The notes under the pieces were generated by a model that did no database searches, had not been told where the DNA came from, and saw nothing but the letters and a program-made list of their open reading frames with translations. 64,000 nucleotides of DNA from Ignatzschineria rhizosphaerae. Its GTDB lineage: Bacteria > Pseudomonadota > Gammaproteobacteria > Cardiobacteriales > Wohlfahrtiimonadaceae. The position numbers and the translations under genes were made by a program. The stretch lies in NCBI RefSeq assembly GCF_022655595.1, contig NZ_CP093379.1, positions 2,678,010 to 2,742,009 on the forward strand, read 5' to 3'. The first letter of the stretch is position 1, and each line of letters starts with the position of its first letter. Below, piece by piece: positions 2,824-12,671 of this stretch.

Positions 2824-2831
2824 GAGTGAAT

Positions 2832-3293
2832 ATGAGTTCAACTTTAGTAGCAAAATCAAAACTGTTTATCAGTAAAACCACTTGCAATAATCTAGCAGAT
2901 AAACCGGAAGATTCAGAGCTTATCCAAATCGCATGCGGAGCGACTGGATTAGATATTCAGGTAGCGGCAGCTGATAAGTCAGATGAAACCACAATTTGTG
3001 ATGGCAGCCCAAAATCTAAAAAAGGCTTTCCTGGTGAGAGTACGGGAACTCTCCCGATGCTTTACTCCTCAGATGAGGATAGCGCCTATGTGGCAGTTCG
3101 AAAGGCAGCAGAACTAGGAGATAACCGCTATATGCGATGGGAGTCTAATGAAGGTGGTGGCGAAGAATTTATTGCTTATGTAGATTCGCATAACTTTGGG
3201 CTTCAACTTAAGGGAATCGTCACAGCAAGCATGAGCCTCGTTATCAACGAAGGGCCAGAACAAATCACAATTCCAGCAAGTTTAGGAGAGTAA
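2832..3293 (+). CDS. Major tail (tube) protein
   Basis: 153 residues. I place the start at ATG 2832 because AGGAG (2822-2826) lies five bases upstream; the in-frame GTG at 2826 overlaps that ribosome site and is unlikely. The protein lies exactly where siphoviruses encode the tail tube subunit, just before the tail chaperone pair, and has the usual size and beta-rich composition: a long acidic loop (D-K-S-D-E-T-T-I-C-D-G) followed by K-G-F-P-G-E-S-T-G-T-L and a C-terminal F-G-L-Q-L-K-G-I-V-T strand. It would polymerise into the tail tube around the tape measure protein. Confidence 0.65.
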   Translation: MSSTLVAKSKLFISKTTCNNLADKPEDSELIQIACGATGLDIQVAAADKSDETTICDGSPKSKKGFPGESTGTLPMLYSSDEDSAYVAVRKAAELGDNRYMRWESNEGGGEEFIAYVDSHNFGLQLKGIVTASMSLVINEGPEQITIPASLGE

Positions 3294-3297
3294 GAAA

Positions 3298-3726
3298 ATG
3301 AATTTAATGAATTACAGTAAAGACAAGTTTGAAAAATCGCAAAAGATGGAGGTGTTATACCCAACAGGAGCAAAAAGCGGTGGGGTTATTTATATCCGAT
3401 CTCTGAAGTCTAAAGCTGTGCAAACCAAGATTGACGAGATTGCAAAGCTAAATAATCAAGTGAAAGCTCAAGGGGTAGGAGCGGCGGTAGATAATGATAT
3501 CGAAATAGCATGTGAGATTGTCGATAGTATTGATGGGTTTACTATCGAAGAAGCAGATAACACGATCGGTTTTGAGTTGTCTGATGGGAATAAAATCGTC
3601 TCTACTCGTGAGAATATTAAGCTGCTCTTGGAGAATTTCCCGTTTATCAGAAGCCAAATTGCAGTTAAGGCACAAGATGATAATTTTTTTTACAAGAGCT
3701 CAGAGACAGAGCAAAAGACTGCATAG
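3298..3726 (+). CDS. Tail assembly chaperone, short form (lambda gpG-like)
   Basis: 142 residues, the zero-frame product ending at TAG 3724-3726. It follows the tube gene and precedes the tape measure region, the standard place of gpG. The sequence is acidic and helical, with a central D-N-D-I-E-I-A-C-E-I-V-D-S-I-D-G-F-T block like other tail chaperones of this class. Near its 3' end it carries an eight-T slippery run, allowing a longer G-T fusion. The short form is expected in large excess, coating the tape measure protein during tail assembly. Confidence 0.75.
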   Translation: MNLMNYSKDKFEKSQKMEVLYPTGAKSGGVIYIRSLKSKAVQTKIDEIAKLNNQVKAQGVGAAVDNDIEIACEIVDSIDGFTIEEADNTIGFELSDGNKIVSTRENIKLLLENFPFIRSQIAVKAQDDNFFYKSSETEQKTA

Positions 3727-4040
3727 AGTTCTATTTTAGACCTGTTGGGGAGAGTAAAGAAACTCTCTTTCAGCAGGTTTCAGCTACTGCCAAGCAGGTT
3801 GATAGCGATATAGGGGATCTAATAGATATTCCTGAAATTCCTCTTTACTATCAGCATGTATGGGCATGGTTTATCGACTTAAATCAGGCTCGGAGCAGTG
3901 GAGGATTTGGAGTTAATCCAATCTCGTATGACTCAATAGATGCCTACTTTCGAGTAATGAGCATTGAAGCAACCAGAGATGACATTCAGGCTTTAAAGAT
4001 ACTCGACTCGCTTTATCTTGAGGCGATATCAGAAAAATAA
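3298..4040 (+). CDS. Tail assembly chaperone frameshift product (lambda gpGT-like)
   Basis: Joined as 3298-3690 plus 3690-4040 by a -1 shift, giving about 247 residues. The -1 frame is open from the slip site through TAA 4038-4040. Its C-terminal part contains W-A-W-F-I-D-L-N-Q-A-R-S-S-G-G-F-G-V-N-P-I-S-Y, which matches the conserved W-x-x-x-x-L-x-x-x-R-x-x-G-F-G-x-N-P-I motif of tail chaperone T domains. In lambda, GT is made at a few percent of G and recruits tail tube subunits through the T domain. A conventional ORF caller would miss this gene entirely. Confidence 0.8.
3684..3690 (+). promoter_or_regulatory. Programmed -1 ribosomal frameshift slippery heptamer
   Basis: The heptamer T-TTT-TTT sits in exact phase with the upstream frame: AAT ends at 3684, followed by codons TTT 3685-3687 and TTT 3688-3690, and an eighth T follows at 3691. 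Slipping back one base leads into the overlapping frame that stays open to 4040. The downstream frame has no usable ATG, GTG or TTG start before its conserved part, so it can only be translated by frameshifting. Confidence 0.85.
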
Positions 4041-4064
4041 GGGATTCTTCGGAGTCCCTTTTTT
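4041..4064 (+). terminator. Terminator after the G/GT gene
   Basis: GGGA and TCCC arms around a TTCGG-containing loop, followed by six T. It ends the head/neck/tail-tube transcript and opens the accessory block. Confidence 0.7.
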
Positions 4065-4071
4065 AATACAT

Positions 4072-4114
4072 AAAAAAAGCGTTGTAGTGCGGCAAACACT
4101 CAACGCCTTTTGAT
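4072..4114. terminator. Bidirectional hairpin terminator
   Basis: GCGTTG (4079-4084) and AGTG pair with CACT and CAACGC (4097-4106). An A-run precedes the stem and a T-run follows it, so it could stop transcription from either side. A second terminator only 15 bases after the first marks a cassette boundary. Confidence 0.65.
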
Positions 4115-4196
4115 TGACTATGTGAAAAGGAAATCAATCAAATCTATGAATGATTATATGAAGAAACTAGGCAAAAGTCTAGAAATGGGAGTGAGT

Positions 4197-4340
4197 ATGA
4201 AAACTTCACTTGAAGGTAAGGCTTCTGAGAAAGCAGCAGGAAGAGCTATTTTGATCAAAAGTATAGGAGCCTCAATTATGTTTATTTGCTTTGGGATCAC
4301 GCCAGTACTATTCACCCTGATGTATTTCTTTAGAGGGTAA
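4197..4340 (+). CDS. Small single-span membrane protein, copy 1 of a tandem triplet
   Basis: 47 residues from ATG 4197, with GGGAG (4187-4191) five bases upstream. A longer in-frame start (4110 or 4147) is possible, but alignment with its two neighbours supports this start. The N-terminal part reads S-L-E-G-K-A-S-E-K and is followed by one hydrophobic helix of about 23 residues ending in F-F-R-G. It is clearly related to the next two genes. No known family recognised; a holin-like, membrane-stress or exclusion role is possible but unproven. Confidence 0.6.
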   Translation: MKTSLEGKASEKAAGRAILIKSIGASIMFICFGITPVLFTLMYFFRG

Positions 4341-4342
4341 GT

Positions 4343-4471
4343 ATGCAAGTGAAAATCGAAGGTAAGATGAGCGAAAAAGGTGCTTACAGGGTTGCGATGA
4401 TCCTAAACATAGGGATCGCTCTGTTCTTAGCTCTTGTTGGTACTGAGATATTAATCTGGGCTATGAAATGA
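4343..4471 (+). CDS. Small single-span membrane protein, copy 2 of a tandem triplet
   Basis: 42 residues, ATG at 4343 two bases after the previous stop and TGA at 4469-4471. It carries K-I-E-G-K-M-S-E-K at residues 4-12, then a single transmembrane helix (about residues 17-40) ending W-A-M-K. The start overlaps the ribosome site region of copy 1's end, and the stop overlaps the next start, so translation is coupled. It is too short for most gene callers. The shared N-terminal motif with copies 1 and 3 argues that it is a real gene. Confidence 0.6.
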   Translation: MQVKIEGKMSEKGAYRVAMILNIGIALFLALVGTEILIWAMK

Positions 4472-4614
4472 AGGTGTCAGTAAAGATCAACCAAAAGGCA
4501 TCAGAAGCAGATAAGAAAAAAGCTAAAACAATATTTTTTACGATGGCGGGCATTGGGCTCGCTTTTTTATTGAGTTGTATTTGTATCGGCTTGATGTTCT
4601 GGCTGATGAAGTAA
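4468..4614 (+). CDS. Small single-span membrane protein, copy 3 of a tandem triplet
   Basis: 48 residues; ATG 4468 overlaps the stop of copy 2 by four bases (ATGA). The N-terminus has K-I-N-Q-K-A-S-E-A, the diverged form of the E-G-K-x-S-E-K motif, followed by a lysine-rich stretch and a hydrophobic helix rich in G, C and I (about residues 22-45) ending W-L-M-K. The positive-inside charge pattern suggests the N-terminus is cytoplasmic. Function unknown. A terminator follows at 4637, so the triplet is a self-contained unit. Confidence 0.6.
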   Translation: MKVSVKINQKASEADKKKAKTIFFTMAGIGLAFLLSCICIGLMFWLMK

Positions 4615-4636
4615 CAGCTTTTTTAATGCAAAAAAT

Positions 4637-4671
4637 AAACCCCTTTTCGAGCGATATCGATCAGGGGTTTT
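4637..4671 (+). terminator. Terminator after the microprotein triplet
   Basis: AAACCCCT (4637-4644) pairs with AGGGGTTT (4663-4670), with internal TCGA repeats in the loop, then T-rich sequence. Confidence 0.7.
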
Positions 4672-4699
4672 AATTTAAATATGAATAAGGAAATTATAT

Positions 4700-5254
4700 A
4701 TGTTAAATGAAAATGTAGCAAATCAGACAAATGAAGTAGCGGAATTAGATTTAGTTTTTATCAGTGATAAAGAGGTTATGACGGATAGCTTGCTTATAGC
4801 AAGGAGATTTGAAAAGAGGCATGACTATGTTTTGCGGAGTATTTCCAAGCTACTTAAAAATAACGCTGGATTAAAAGGTCTCCCCACTTTTGAGGAGAGC
4901 TCATATTTGGATTCCCAAGGGAAAGTTCAGCCTAAATATCTCTTAACAAAAGATGCGATGATACTTCTAGTTATGGGGTATACCGGCAAAAAGGCAATGG
5001 AATTTAAAATTGATTACATTAATGCCTTCAATGTTATGTATGAACACATCAAAACCCAAGCCAGCTTACAAGATCGTCTATTTGCAGCTATGCAGGAAGA
5101 AGATGTTTCAGCGGCTAAAGGGAGTCTTGGCGGAACATTGATGCAAGAACGTAAAGTAGAGAAACCTATCCTTAGAGCCAAAATAGAAGACCTCATAAGC
5201 CTGATGCAGGGCGATATTGATTATAAATCTACTGATAACAAGAAAATCCACTAA
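4700..5254 (+). CDS. Rha-family phage regulatory protein
   Basis: 184 residues, AAGGA upstream of ATG. The N-terminal half matches the pRha domain: V-M-T-D-S-L-L-I-A-R-R-F-E-K-R-H-D-Y-V-L-R-S-I near residues 25-48, then F-x-E-S-S-Y-x-D-x-x-G-K-x-Q-P-K-Y-L-L-T-K-D, then G-Y-T-G-K-K-A-M-E-F-K-x-x-Y-I-N-A-F-N. Rha proteins are prophage or satellite regulators thought to act in place of, or against, host factors such as IHF. The C-terminal 70 residues are a charged helix specific to this copy. It lies in the accessory block rather than the early region, so it may act as an independent moron. Confidence 0.85.
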   Translation: MLNENVANQTNEVAELDLVFISDKEVMTDSLLIARRFEKRHDYVLRSISKLLKNNAGLKGLPTFEESSYLDSQGKVQPKYLLTKDAMILLVMGYTGKKAMEFKIDYINAFNVMYEHIKTQASLQDRLFAAMQEEDVSAAKGSLGGTLMQERKVEKPILRAKIEDLISLMQGDIDYKSTDNKKIH

Positions 5255-5271
5255 TTGATTGAGGTATTAAA

Positions 5272-5574
5272 ATGAAAGATATAAATCTAGAGTTAATGAA
5301 TGAGCCAAGAGAAAATGCCGGTGTAAAAAGGCTTCATGAGATTTTTTTAAGTGGCGGTGAGCCTACGAGTCAAGAGTGGGAAGATGGCTATGCTGATGCA
5401 GTATTCGAGTGGGAAAGGAGTAGCATGGAAGGGCTTGCCTTATTACGGGCTTTAAAGGTGCTAGATAAGGCTAACTTCGCTAAAGTTTGGAATCAATATG
5501 AGTCTATTTTGGCAGAGGAAATCGCTAAAAAAGTAGAGGAACTTGAATCAATCGAGGTTGAGGTTACCCACTAA
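5272..5574 (+). CDS. Hypothetical protein of the Rha cassette
   Basis: 100 residues, 17 bases after rha and probably co-transcribed. It is an acidic, largely helical protein with a W-E-D-G-Y-A-D-A-V-F-E-W-E-R segment near residues 42-55 and a C-terminal heptad-like helix (I-A-K-K-V-E-E-L-E-S-I-E). No signal peptide or membrane span. I do not recognise the family. Its pairing with a Rha regulator suggests a regulatory partner, but this is only context. Confidence 0.55.
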   Translation: MKDINLELMNEPRENAGVKRLHEIFLSGGEPTSQEWEDGYADAVFEWERSSMEGLALLRALKVLDKANFAKVWNQYESILAEEIAKKVEELESIEVEVTH

Positions 5575-5913
5575 CAAGAAAAGCTCAATTAAAAAGACCG
5601 TGGAGGACTGCACCAGTTTGTGCAGTCAGATTTGAAGCTGAGCAATTGCCCGATAAGCCGTCATTTATCCCGTAAGCGCAAAAATGCGTTGACGTTAGTC
5701 GTGATCCCGACCGACCTCTTGAGGCTCTATTTATCAGTGGTTTGAACTGGCGCAAAATCTGCACTAGTTGGGATACGGAAAGAATTAAGAATATGGATGG
5801 TCGGATAACTCTTAGTGAGGATTCGTTCTTGAAGATTAAATCAGAAATGAACGAGATTTCCAAAGCTGTATCGGAAGTCAAAAGTCTGATTTAAGTATTA
5901 ACAGTAAATATAT
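5575..5913. other. Gene-less stretch: inverted repeat plus a stop-interrupted reading frame
   Basis: No convincing intact gene. Forward frame 3 stays open from about 5562 to 5892 except for a single TAA (5672-5674, shortly after a P-S-F-I-P stretch) and has no good start. The part after the stop reads like protein, with S-R-D-P-D-R-P-L-E-A-L and a charged coiled C-terminus (E-M-N-E-I-S-K-A-V-S-E-V). This could be a decayed gene. A perfect 8-bp inverted repeat GACTGCAC/GTGCAGTC (5606-5613 and 5620-5627) could fold as an RNA hairpin or be an operator. A 98-codon reverse frame here lacks coding character. Confidence 0.4.
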
Positions 5914-5915
5914 GG

Positions 5916-5940
5916 ATAGCCCTGATTTAAGGGCTATTTG
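5916..5940 (+). terminator. Hairpin terminator before the GHKL nuclease gene
   Basis: ATAGCCCT (5916-5923) and AGGGCTAT (5930-5937) with a six-base loop. The T-run is short (TTTG), so strength is uncertain. The stem resembles those at 7888 and 8354. Confidence 0.6.
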
Positions 5941-5964
5941 TCGTTTAATTTAATTAGAGGTAAC

Positions 5965-7857
5965 ATGAAAGCAACTTTAAGTGATCAAGGCCTCAATTCA
6001 ATGAAAACAAATCTACCTAGAATCTCAGGATATCTGTATAAAAACGTTACAGTTAATGATGTTTTAAAAGAGTCTGTAATGAATTCTATACAGGCAAATG
6101 CGACTCAGATTGATATTACTCTGGGGTATCAGTATGACAGTACTATTGATGGTGAAGCTTCAGGTATGGGGCGCTTAAATAAGATATCCATCAGAGATAA
6201 TGGTGATGGGCTTACAAAGAGAAATACCGATGCTTTTTTTGAAGTTGCTACTGATAATAAAGCGGGGATTGGAGGGAAGGGAATTGGTCGGATCTCTTTC
6301 TTGAAGATAGCTAATAGAATTGAAGTTGAGAGCGTCTCAAAAGAAGGGAAGTTAGTTAAATTCCCTTTCTCATTTGATGCTAAAAGAGAGGATGTAATAA
6401 CATCTGATTGCAGAAATAAAGATACTTATACGCAAATCGTCTTGAGCGATTTAAATTTAAGACGATATGGCACACAGCCAGCATCGTGTGTTTCTTTTTT
6501 GAAAGAGAAGTTCAACCTGATGCTTTTTTTAAAGCAGCAAGATACTGGGAAAAATATATCGATCAATGTTTTTGTTAATAACTCTAAATTTGAGAGTATA
6601 AATAGCGAGGATATCAACTATTTAGAGAGCAGGCAGTATGAGAGTGGATCTTGTAATTTTCTTATTTATGTATTTAGAAATAAGAGCAAGAACGGAATAG
6701 CTATATCTTATTGCGCCAACAACCTTCAAGTTGACTCAGATGTAGTAAGCAAAGACTTTAAAACGCAGTATATATTTGCGATCACATCTGAATTCTTAGA
6801 TGAGAATGCTAACGCAGAAAGAACTAGATTTGATTTTAGAGATTTTGATGATTCAGAGCAGGAGGATGCAATATTACTTGCTCCCAATAAAGGATTTAAA
6901 GATGAGCTTAAAAAGCTATGTTTGGAAATAGTTCACCAGCATGAGCCTGATCTAGGAAAGGAAAATAAAACAAAGCTAAGTAAACTCAAAGAGCGGTACG
7001 GGTATATTAACTTTGATGATATTGACCCAAGTAGTTTATTTTTTGATGAAAAAAGAATAATTGAAGATTACAGAAAAAAAGTTAATGACAGTGAAGATAG
7101 ATTGGTTGCGCTTCTTGATAGGGCTGACATATCAATTGATCAGCTTGCTAGTGAAGTCACGGAGCAGAATAAGCATGAATTGGCTAAATATATATTCCAT
7201 AGAGATATAGTGGCCAAAAAAGGACTAGGGCTAACAGGTTCAAAAGAGAATGAAGATATCTTGCATAGTTTATTCTTTCCACAAAAAGCGACAGCTAAAT
7301 CCAAGGAAGGCAAGCAAAAGAATGAGATGGGGTTATATGAGAACAGTATATGGTTGCTAGATGATAAGTTCATGTCATTTGTTTACACTGCGTCAGATGT
7401 CGCCATGAAAAGGATATATGATGAGGTTGGTGACAAGAATGCCCCTAAAGCTCCAAGAGATCGCCCTGATTTATTTATTTTGTACAATAATCCTGAAAAA
7501 AGCGATTCATTTAAAGATGTCGTATTGATTGAATTCAAAAAAGGAGATATTAACTATTTAGAGAAGGCATCAGGAATAGATCAGGCTGTTCGGTATAAAA
7601 TGGCACTTATGGATATGGTGGATAATATAAGAAATTTCTACTGTTATATTATTTGTGATTTCGATGCTAATGATGAAAACCTAGAATTAGTTATGAGGGA
7701 TAGGACTTTCACGAAAGTATTTAGCAATGATGGTTGTATGTATTATGGGTATTTACCAGGCTCTAAAACACACATAACATTTATCTCGTCCAAGAGTATA
7801 TTCACCGATGCAGTAGCAAGAAATGAAACATTTTTAAATATTTTAAAGAATAGTTAA
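5965..7857 (+). CDS. GHKL ATPase fused to a PD-(D/E)XK nuclease domain, likely defence protein
   Basis: 630 residues. ATG 5965 is chosen because AGAGG lies four bases upstream and an in-frame TTG at 5938 sits in the preceding terminator. The N-terminus has all GHKL (Hsp90/MutL/MORC) ATP motifs: E36-S-V-M-N40-S-I-Q-A-N-A, D78-N-G-D-G82, and G101-I-G-G-K-G-I-G108. A central helical part follows. The C-terminus has P-D502, then E523-F-K525 and Q540-A-V-R-Y544, matching the PD-(D/E)XK plus QxxxY pattern of RecB-like nucleases. No membrane segment is seen. Such ATPase-nuclease fusions are linked to restriction and anti-phage systems. It is a single gene between two terminators in a prophage, so probably an exclusion moron; target and trigger are unknown. 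Confidence 0.75.
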   Translation: MKATLSDQGLNSMKTNLPRISGYLYKNVTVNDVLKESVMNSIQANATQIDITLGYQYDSTIDGEASGMGRLNKISIRDNGDGLTKRNTDAFFEVATDNKAGIGGKGIGRISFLKIANRIEVESVSKEGKLVKFPFSFDAKREDVITSDCRNKDTYTQIVLSDLNLRRYGTQPASCVSFLKEKFNLMLFLKQQDTGKNISINVFVNNSKFESINSEDINYLESRQYESGSCNFLIYVFRNKSKNGIAISYCANNLQVDSDVVSKDFKTQYIFAITSEFLDENANAERTRFDFRDFDDSEQEDAILLAPNKGFKDELKKLCLEIVHQHEPDLGKENKTKLSKLKERYGYINFDDIDPSSLFFDEKRIIEDYRKKVNDSEDRLVALLDRADISIDQLASEVTEQNKHELAKYIFHRDIVAKKGLGLTGSKENEDILHSLFFPQKATAKSKEGKQKNEMGLYENSIWLLDDKFMSFVYTASDVAMKRIYDEVGDKNAPKAPRDRPDLFILYNNPEKSDSFKDVVLIEFKKGDINYLEKASGIDQAVRYKMALMDMVDNIRNFYCYIICDFDANDENLELVMRDRTFTKVFSNDGCMYYGYLPGSKTHITFISSKSIFTDAVARNETFLNILKNS

Positions 7858-9428: not shown

Positions 9429-12400
9429 ATGGCTGATTTAGGTATGTACATCAGGGTTAGTGCTGTTGGGGCGGATAGGGCTGAAGATGCTTTAAATAAA
9501 GTTGCTAATACTGCTGATAAGCTAGAAAGAAAATCAGGGAGTGCTAGTGGAAAAGTAGATGATCTTGGGAACTCTTTGGAGAAGACAGGTAGAAAAGCAA
9601 GAGATGCAGAGCAGTATTTGGGGTTGGCAGAGAAGGCTATAAAAGGACTAGTAACACTTCAAGTTACACGGAGCTTGCTTGATATTGGCGATAATTACAG
9701 AGCAATGAGTGAGCGGGTGAGGATGGCGACAGATAGCTTGGGAGAATTTAATTTCGTTCAGCAGAGATTACTGCAATCTGCAAATACTTCATTCAGATCT
9801 TTAGCTGAAGCTCAAGAGATGTTTATTGCTACATCTGGAAACTTGAGGTCGATGGGGTATTCTCTAGGACAAGCTTTAGATATTACAGACAGTCTCAGCT
9901 TTGCCTTTGTCCGTAATGCTACGTCAGCCCAAAGAGCCGAATCTGCGATTATTCAATATGATAAAGCTCTGAGTAAGGGGGTAATGAATGGCGAGCAGTG
10001 GCGTGTATTTTCAGGTGCAGTTGAGACTGTGGCGAAAAATATAGGAGATGTTTATGGTAAGACTGCACAAGAAATAGATAAAATGGGGCATGATGGGCTT
10101 CTGACTGTTCAAATGATTAACGAAGGACTTCTAAGATCGTTAAATGAAAATAAGGTTGCCGCAGATTCAATGGCAAATACAGTTGGGGATTCCTTTGTTA
10201 AGTTGAATAATGAGTTTAGTCACTTATGGGGAAATATTAACGAAAGCCTAGGGGTTACTTCTCTATTTGCATCAACAGTTATCGGTATTGCTGATAATTT
10301 GGAGTATGCTTTAATTCCAGTCTTAGTGGCTGCATCAGTGGTAACAGGGAGAATGACTTCAGGGTTGATTACTACTGCAAATTCATTTAGAAAATCAGCA
10401 TTCGAAGCTAGTAGGTATCAAGTGAAGTTAGCAGAATTAACAGGGGCTTCTCGAGTGGCTGCTAGATCAATGGTAGCAACATCTGTTGCTGCTCAAGGAT
10501 TATCTTCAACAATTGCATTTTTAGGAGGACCGGTTGGAGCGTTGACAACTGCAGTGACAATAGCTACAGGAGGTTGGATGTTATTTGCAAATAGCACTAG
10601 AGATGCAAAATCAGAAGTAGGTCAATTGGAGCAAGAGGTAATGGATCTAACTGAGCGCTTGAAAACGATGAATAAAGAAAAGGTCGAAGGTGCTCAAATA
10701 AAATATTCCGACATGTTTTTAGATTTGTCAGAAAAGAGGAGAGGGTTAGAGTCTGATATTGATGCTATTGAGTCGCAATTAGAGGGTTTTTATAGAAGGC
10801 AGAGATTATATGCTGCTAGAGGAGTTGAAGATGCCAGCACAAACAATTTGATTGCGAGAGATCAAAAAAGGTTAGCACTACTTAAAGAGGAAGCAACTTA
10901 TACAGATGATGCCTTAAAAATTGTATCGGATACTTTGGAATTAATTCAGGAAAGAGCTAAAACGGCAGGAGGGCAAATCATTGAGATGGGGGCTTGGGCT
11001 AGACTGGCGAAAAATGCTAATGAGGGATTAAACTTAGCAGGAAAGTCTTTAGATCTTTACTCTTCCATGGCTAAGAAAATGTATGAGATTAATAATAATG
11101 GGGTTGAGGCTCAGTTAGCTTTTGAGAGGGCTGTTGGTAATTTAGATGATATGGATGAGAGTACATATCAGGTATTTTTAAATTGGGCGAAGATAATTGA
11201 TCAGCAACAACTCATGAAGGCAAACGATGAAGAGCTTACAAAAATACTTTCAGACGTAGAAGAGCAATATGACAATATAGGCAAAAGCGTGCAGGAGATC
11301 ACTCGAGCGAAATTGATAGCAAGAGCAGTTGATTTAGGTATTGATCCTGAGCAGCTAAAGGAACTTGAATTTTGGTTGACGGCTATCGGAAATGCTCCAA
11401 ATGTTGGCGGAAAAACAAGCCTAAACTACTTTGATGATACCCTTAAATCTCTCAATGATGAGCTAATCTCAACTAAAGCATTAACACAAGATCTAACTCT
11501 TTTTGGCGATCTTAGTCAATACACGGCATTTTCTGAAATGACTATGCAGTTAAACGATACTAAAGGCGTATTGGCGAATATCACGGCTTCACAAAGAGAA
11601 TTACTGCTCTATAAAGCTCAAGAGCTAGATTCACAGAAGCAAATCAATGCGATTTTAGAATTAGGGCGTGATACTACTCAAGACCTTGATGATCTAGAGT
11701 TTGAAATTAGCTTATATGGCAAGAGCCAAAAAGAGATTGAAAGACTTACGTTTTTTAGAGATTTAGACAATGAAGCACGCTTGATCTCAATCGGCATGAC
11801 AGAGGATAATATCGCAGTCCTGAATAGAGAGATTGAGGCACTAAAAGAGCGTTACGGCTTAATTGAAATGAACCGTGAGCATGACGAGAATAGTATCGGG
11901 AAAGGTATCGAAAGTGGCTTCCAACAATACATCGACAATATCGGCACAATGAGAGATTCATTCGCTGATGCTACGCAGTCGGTATTTGGAAATATTGAAG
12001 GCTTCCTCGTTGATTTTGCGCATACTGGAAAGCTTAACTTTAGAGATATGACGACTTCGATTCTGCAAGATTTATCGCAGATTATGATTCGTATAGCTAT
12101 GATGCAGGCGGTTACAGGCATGCAAGGATGGTTATCTGGCTTAGGCTTATTCTCAGGTGGTGGAAGTGTCCCAATTAGTCCAGGTATTCCTTATCAAGCA
12201 TGGACAGGCGGACTTATTCCTGAATACGCAACAGGCGGTCGAGTAATTGACTTCTCAGGCGGAGGATTCACAGGAATGGGCGGAAAGTTTGAGCCTAAAG
12301 GGATCGTTCACGGTGGCGAATATGTCATGAGTAAAGCGGCCGTTAATAATCTTGGAGTTGGGTATTTTGAACAGCTTCATGATTTAGCGAAAAGCGGACG

Positions 12401-12671
12401 AGGCTTTGCAAATGGCGGTCATGTTGGCAGATCATCAACGCAAATGGCAATGATGGGATATATGCCGGCAAATCACTCTACACCTCAACAGCAATCACAG
12501 CCAAGCGGAGATGTTGTTGTTCATCAAACTATTCATTATCAAAGTAGCGGTGATGGGAAAGAGGATGCGAGAAAAGCTGCTAAAGAGTTTGCAGAGAGTT
12601 ATAAGACTGAATTTAAAAAGCTTTTAAAAGATGAGGTTCGAGATGGGGGAATGATTGGTCCTCGACGATAA
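9429..12671 (+). CDS. Tail tape measure protein (lambda gpH-like)
   Basis: 1,080 residues, preceded by AAGGAGAG. It has the long, mostly helical composition of tape measures. The N-terminus M-A-D-L-G-x-x-I-R-V is shared by this class. Hydrophobic stretches around residues 290-400 could enter the host membrane at infection. The C-terminal part contains the conserved lambda-family segment T-G-K-L-N-F-R-D-M-T-T-S-I-L-Q-D-L-S at about residues 866-883, followed by a glycine-rich region and H-G-G-E-Y-V. The protein sets tail length and is coated by G/GT chaperones; at this length the tail would be around 150 nm by the usual residue-to-length rule (inference). Confidence 0.92.
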   Translation: MADLGMYIRVSAVGADRAEDALNKVANTADKLERKSGSASGKVDDLGNSLEKTGRKARDAEQYLGLAEKAIKGLVTLQVTRSLLDIGDNYRAMSERVRMATDSLGEFNFVQQRLLQSANTSFRSLAEAQEMFIATSGNLRSMGYSLGQALDITDSLSFAFVRNATSAQRAESAIIQYDKALSKGVMNGEQWRVFSGAVETVAKNIGDVYGKTAQEIDKMGHDGLLTVQMINEGLLRSLNENKVAADSMANTVGDSFVKLNNEFSHLWGNINESLGVTSLFASTVIGIADNLEYALIPVLVAASVVTGRMTSGLITTANSFRKSAFEASRYQVKLAELTGASRVAARSMVATSVAAQGLSSTIAFLGGPVGALTTAVTIATGGWMLFANSTRDAKSEVGQLEQEVMDLTERLKTMNKEKVEGAQIKYSDMFLDLSEKRRGLESDIDAIESQLEGFYRRQRLYAARGVEDASTNNLIARDQKRLALLKEEATYTDDALKIVSDTLELIQERAKTAGGQIIEMGAWARLAKNANEGLNLAGKSLDLYSSMAKKMYEINNNGVEAQLAFERAVGNLDDMDESTYQVFLNWAKIIDQQQLMKANDEELTKILSDVEEQYDNIGKSVQEITRAKLIARAVDLGIDPEQLKELEFWLTAIGNAPNVGGKTSLNYFDDTLKSLNDELISTKALTQDLTLFGDLSQYTAFSEMTMQLNDTKGVLANITASQRELLLYKAQELDSQKQINAILELGRDTTQDLDDLEFEISLYGKSQKEIERLTFFRDLDNEARLISIGMTEDNIAVLNREIEALKERYGLIEMNREHDENSIGKGIESGFQQYIDNIGTMRDSFADATQSVFGNIEGFLVDFAHTGKLNFRDMTTSILQDLSQIMIRIAMMQAVTGMQGWLSGLGLFSGGGSVPISPGIPYQAWTGGLIPEYATGGRVIDFSGGGFTGMGGKFEPKGIVHGGEYVMSKAAVNNLGVGYFEQLHDLAKSGRGFANGGHVGRSSTQMAMMGYMPANHSTPQQQSQPSGDVVVHQTIHYQSSGDGKEDARKAAKEFAESYKTEFKKLLKDEVRDGGMIGPRR

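Follow-up and report, generated by a model that had tools for sequence, protein, structure and literature searches.

The question raised by this locus is what three very short open reading frames, placed in a row among the tail genes of a prophage, encode and how they might be controlled. The prophage lies in the window, that is, the whole 64,000-nt stretch of DNA that was analysed, and all coordinates given here are positions in it. The gene for the major tail protein (2826-3293) is followed by that for the tail assembly chaperone (3298-3726; its -1 frameshift product reaches 4040), the microproteins, a Rha-type regulator (4700-5254), further inserted genes, and the tape measure gene (9429-12671). 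The chaperone frameshift is probable at a run of T residues around 3685-3692; in the overlapping frame, open from 3684, the stop lies at 4038-4040. A GHKL-type ATPase of 639 aa is encoded at 5938-7857, between the Rha regulator and the tape measure gene, by one of the inserted genes, which may represent another moron.

A preliminary description of this DNA had reported three tandem ORFs of 47, 42 and 48 codons, and they are found exactly where it placed them, all on the plus strand. ORF1 (4197..4340; 47 aa, MKTSLEGKASEKAAG...) is followed by ORF2 (4343..4471; 42 aa, MQVKIEGKMSEKGAY...), which is the nearest of the three to the consensus of the family described below, and by the diverged copy ORF3 (4468..4614; 48 aa, MKVSVKINQKASEAD...). 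From the ORF1 stop to the ORF2 start the sequence reads TAAGTATG, such that only GT separates the two genes, and the ORF2 stop and ORF3 start overlap as ATGA. Given this spacing and overlap, translation of the three ORFs is probably coupled, in agreement with the earlier claim. The single-span topology that had been proposed also agrees with the hydropathy of all three products: each has an N-terminus with a net positive charge and one hydrophobic stretch, predicted to be a membrane helix, with maximum Kyte-Doolittle values over 19 residues of 2.15 (ORF1), 2.29 (ORF2), and 2.43 (ORF3). Likewise, the unit is indeed bounded by terminator hairpins. On the 5' side there is one at 4039..4060 on the plus strand, directly 3' of the chaperone frameshift product, which folds at -12.6 kcal/mol, and a second at 4079-4106; on the 3' side there is a hairpin at 4637..4670 on the plus strand, which folds at -17.3 kcal/mol. 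The statement that two of the ORFs fall below gene-calling limits is only partly right, as relatives of 53 aa (WP_002121607.1) and 60 aa (CAH1086671.1) are annotated.

The start of ORF1 bears on the rest of the analysis. An in-frame ATG at 4146 would lengthen the protein to 64 aa, and this start was at first favoured because the frame is kept in G002 and G010, two relatives from the window's own clade. However, comparison of the window with G002 gives a dN of 0.081, a dS of 1.22, and a dN/dS of 0.067 from the ATG at 4197, but a dN/dS of 0.90 with a dS of 0.37 for the stretch 4146-4196. Consequently, the protein starts at 4197, and in the stretch that precedes it the constraint is on the DNA and not on a protein. 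Since the ATG at 4197 also has its own Shine-Dalgarno sequence, GGGAG (4187..4191, plus strand; GGGGG in G002 and GAGG in G010 at the equivalent place), the start at 4146 was dropped. The ratio of 0.067 and the conserved frame are the very features, homologues with synonymous substitution bias, on which the preliminary description had made its proposal depend, and purifying selection extends to the Acinetobacter subfamily, in which pN/pS is ~0.17. These selection tests contradict the reading that the ORFs are decayed or spurious, to which their extreme shortness and the relative in G003, which lacks the motif and the leader, would lend some colour; together with the independent profile matches given below, they make it exceedingly improbable.

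To what, then, are the microproteins related? ORF1 (8e-4) and ORF2 (2.2e-6) independently match phrog_12997 of PHROGs v4, a cluster that is also matched by the G010 relative and by a relative in an Acinetobacter phage. This entry has no assigned function, is out of reach of ORF3, and is silent on leaders, hairpins, and triplication. A further match in G290 is spurious, as it lies within an ORF of 382 aa. Pfam and NCBIfam contain no model that the family matches above cut-offs, and literature searches found no paper on it; thus, the earlier statement that there is no named family holds, the sole database entry being an unnamed PHROG cluster. A profile was also built solely from relatives in other phages, without the window sequences, using loci from DNA pattern scans of viral contigs. 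It detects ORF2 at 4.9e-11, ORF1 at 2.8e-5, and ORF3 at 3.6 (Z=60000), the last corresponding to ~6e-5 if taken as a single test. In addition, the C-terminus of ORF3, IGLMFWLMK, is common to the single-copy relative in G010. Together with the cluster matches, these results uphold the proposed paralogy, and shared ancestry of ORF1-ORF3, as judged from sequence similarity, is beyond chance.

The pattern scans of viral contigs yielded ~75 loci with relatives. The motif is specific, as almost all of the M-type matches prove to be short ORFs in which it is combined with one helix; scans of viral contigs with A-type motifs gave chance matches only. The family consensus is (V/I)xGKMSExGAD(R/K)(A/V)G plus one helix, and its architecture by hydropathy and alignment, to which the window ORFs conform, is a short polar N-terminus followed by a single C-terminal hydrophobic helix. 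In the window's own clade there is one copy in G002, between the tail tube and tape measure genes, and one in G010, 3' of the tail tube gene; farther afield, an A. baumannii phage-plasmid carries a family member (WP_002121607.1), as does Pasteurella phage Pmp14, in which the gene lies between the terminase and portal genes. Among the collected relatives, tandem copies occur in the window only, and nearly all of the others are single. The family therefore needs no neighbouring paralogue, and the suggestion that tandem divergence reflects a hetero-oligomeric pore or different partners finds no support. Three loci are worth recording separately. The L032 prophage contig carries two members 5.7 kb apart. 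L152 (in G003) has a diverged or degenerate copy, with GEASQ replacing GKMSE and without a separate leader, beside a P22-type antirepressor; this copy is possibly decaying. Finally, NZ_CP104448.1 (L067), a sequence of 4.09 Mb with a family member, is listed among plasmids but, judging by its size, looks like a chromosome.

The positions of the genes indicate what kind of element they are. PHROG typing of the neighbours places the cassette after the tail chaperone (the window, L094, and L134), after the tail tube gene (G002, G010, and L105), after the tape measure gene (L066, L073, L076, and L079) or before it (L085 and L096), next to capsid genes (L109), within lysis cassettes (L006, L029, L090, L114, and L118), after antirepressor genes (L019, L086, and L074), and before a methyltransferase (L075). 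In the contexts that were read, the adjoining typed genes are co-directional with the microprotein. Given so many different sites in late operons, with tail, capsid, lysis, and antirepressor neighbours, the family members behave as morons. The typing agrees with an extra gene lying at varying sites between genes that adjoin each other in relatives, and a terminator of its own follows the cassette, at 4637-4670 in the window and downstream of the gene in 30 of 42 relatives. However, a consensus scan of 3000-6200 revealed no promoter-like site on the plus strand, and it follows that the cassette would be read with the late transcript. A promoter of non-consensus type may nevertheless exist, since the scan covered consensus sites. 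Thus, the cassette is distributed and behaves like a moron, although the strict definition would also include a sense promoter of its own. As side observations, antirepressor or Rha genes lie repeatedly beside the cassette in unrelated prophages (window 4700-5254, L086, L074, L062 2739-3617, and L152), and in L066 (2480-2790), from an A. baumannii phage-plasmid, imperfect repeats of ~120 bases separate the tape measure gene from the microprotein.

Such a distribution invites comparison with HK97 gp15, a superinfection-exclusion protein. Like the microproteins, gp15 is a small single-helix membrane protein encoded between a frameshifted tail chaperone and the tape measure gene and followed by a terminator, and by this analogy of site exclusion is a plausible function. 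According to this explanation, the family would be an ordinary exclusion moron, with peptides in the membrane that, like gp15, prevent the DNA of related phages from entering the cell or interfere with the function of their tails. In roughly half of the typed contexts the neighbour is a tail chaperone, tail tube, or tape measure gene, the members are found in prophages and are almost absent from records of isolated phages, and the conserved polar motif suggests a protein partner. However, the helix is N-terminal in gp15 and C-terminal here, and a profile comparison of gp15 with the family found no similarity (probability 0.7%). In addition, the capsid, lysis, and antirepressor neighbours argue against tail specificity, and the scan of 3000-6200 found no sense promoter for expression in the lysogen. 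Exclusion by an ordinary moron of this type is, on balance, unlikely, if not strongly so.

The leader of the cassette provides a second line of evidence. The hairpin at 4079-4106 recurs unchanged, loop included, in G002 and with a single base difference in G010. When read in the antisense direction it is followed by a run of seven T residues, and the whole (4072..4106, minus strand) is a predicted terminator of an antisense RNA. Almost all family leaders have a terminator-like hairpin ~28-48 nt 5' of the start codon; the stems differ, T runs are present on both sides, and that on the opposite strand is typically TTTTTGCTTTTT. In 21 of 26 non-redundant leaders the hairpin is significant at p 0.033 or below relative to shuffled sequences. 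The three leaders of the window's clade contain a bulged hairpin, which is missed by a simple search and found by folding. A few members, of the L019 and L086 type, have no leader terminator other than one in the sense direction, immediately 5' of the start. Because the hairpins are bidirectional, they may simply be sense terminators, which speaks against an antisense reading. However, in several cassettes no downstream terminator separates the microprotein from an essential late gene that follows directly, and there a purely sense-direction terminator would be harmful; this was counted in favour of an antisense role.

Other interpretations of the leaders were set aside. Sequestration of the Shine-Dalgarno sequence by CCTT...AAGG hairpins was convincing by eye, but not significant against shuffled leaders. 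The loop GTGCG-AACAC was dropped as a conserved signal, since other Acinetobacter cassettes have it in inverted form and its frequency in related genomes is close to that of the control. Indeed, in Acinetobacter cassettes that are otherwise alike, the loop is present in both orientations, GTGCGCCAACAC and GTGTTGGCGCAC (L006 3910-3923 and L066 2912-2930). A search of Rfam with the window leader gave nothing above gathering scores and no match to an antitoxin RNA.

The stretch 4146-4196 holds, on the minus strand, a promoter-like element (4153..4181) that consists of TAGACT (4181-4176), a spacer of 17 nt, and TATAAT (4158-4153). The corresponding sequences are TAGACT-17-TATAAT in G010 and TAGACA-17-TATACT in G002, and in each of these three the element stands out from shuffles at p 0.01-0.03. 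Between the window and G010, the two hexamers are identical at 12 of 12 positions, and over the remainder of 4146-4196 roughly every second base agrees. Across the family the element lies just inside the ORF or 5' of it, and there it is visible in codon choice. Codons 2-3, which read TAT[AG][AC]T on the opposite strand and match a -10 box there, have a synonymous codon identity of 0.91-0.99, and the codons TTA AAG GTA GAT, which read TACCTT on that strand, 17 nt from TAT[AG][AC]T, have one of 0.80-0.88. Elsewhere in the ORF this identity is 0.24-0.6 for most codons, and several codons between the two blocks are free. Given the amino acids and the codon usage of each locus, the chance of the TATA[AC]T spelling is 10^-8.7 (strict) or 10^-5.6 (relaxed), values that are not independent probabilities because the family members are related by ancestry. 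Furthermore, for most family members the antisense promoter does not reach significance by sigma-70 scoring (median p 0.47), and the TACCTT box is not a consensus -35 sequence.

Together, the hairpin and the promoter-like signals suggest an antisense RNA of ~75 nt over the leader. In the window this predicted RNA would run between the promoter-like element and the antisense-direction terminator (4072..4146, minus strand). It would end 5' of the Shine-Dalgarno sequence of ORF1, whose start is at 4197, and would thus cover the leader but not the ribosome site, which weakens the case for regulation by such an RNA. If the family were an exclusion moron and nothing else, the hairpins would be cassette boundaries only and the codon conservation would reflect translation signals; the two frozen codon blocks are not explained by exclusion alone.

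The second of these blocks is open to another interpretation, as a ribosome site for an internal start at the Met of GKMSE, an idea that belongs to another explanation: a holin/antiholin-like protein, made late, that would time lysis and would have dual starts in most members, with a long form from the first start and a short form from the GKMSE ATG. Some cassettes are indeed flanked by a membrane protein gene and the endolysin, or by the endolysin and the Rz spanin, and a conserved TTAAAGGTAGATGGAAAA precedes the GKMSE ATG. In addition, five loci have kept the core despite having no in-frame ATG, GTG, or TTG upstream. Given these loci and the second block, the frozen codons may serve both purposes. 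The family resembles the dual-start lambda S system in its structured leader and in the second in-frame start codon within the ORF of most relatives, but differs from it in having one helix and in lying mostly outside lysis cassettes. Furthermore, Ala replaces the internal Met in window ORF1 and ORF3 and in G010, and in most members the N-terminal part evolves as coding sequence, with the third position changing fastest. Consequently, a role in lysis timing is considered quite improbable.

Taken together, these results have led to the hypothesis that the cassette is an inner-membrane phage moron regulated by an antisense RNA, with a layout like that of type I toxin-antitoxin systems. This is the best explanation of the locus, although it is offered tentatively, at somewhat short of an even chance. 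In this model, the product would be a very small inner-membrane protein with a short, positively charged N-terminal tail, which carries the conserved GK(M/A)SE and is presumably cytoplasmic, and one membrane helix. The cassette would have been inserted at different points of the late operons of unrelated phages. The antisense RNA of ~75 nt would begin opposite the start of the gene, stop at the hairpin just upstream, and bind the leader of the mRNA, thereby keeping expression low in the lysogen until late transcription eventually outruns it. In the window prophage the gene would have been triplicated under a single leader, with ORF2 and ORF3 each dependent on translation of the preceding gene. 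The site of action of the product would most likely be the inner membrane, with either the host or the DNA of an incoming phage as target, and the peptides might be toxic or might exclude phages.

The proposed layout resembles that of type I systems of the Hok/Sok, Fst/RNAII, and AapA/IsoA kind in the small hydrophobic peptide, the predicted cis-antisense RNA over the leader, and the shared hairpin terminator. However, the window family has a conserved polar motif, no toxin promoter was found, and the genes are located in late operons. Moreover, conservation is stronger in the polar motif than in the helix, which is not the pattern of classical type I toxins, and there is no match to a type I family among the Pfam toxin models or the Rfam antitoxins.

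The analysis thus identifies a real, unnamed, and widespread moron-like family with a locally triplicated member; its breadth, its variable insertion sites, and the opposite-strand signals go beyond what the preliminary description saw. As a family it adds a new entry to a known kind, and antisense control, if real, would set it apart as a variant. In its fullest form, the proposal is of a widespread class of membrane microproteins that would have the promoter of a cis-antisense RNA in their first codons and be carried as a cassette in the late operons of gammaproteobacterial phages, with a three-peptide operon under one RNA in the present case. As read from sequence patterns, this wider proposal is possible, and is put forward with more doubt than confidence. 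If true, a large group of prophage microproteins that lack annotation, many of them in Acinetobacter prophages, would have a concrete RNA switch, and the list of prophage functions with an influence on lysogeny, exclusion, or lysis would gain an antisense-controlled membrane peptide system. Should there be no such RNA, the motif and the alignment still allow such tiny genes to be recognised and annotated.
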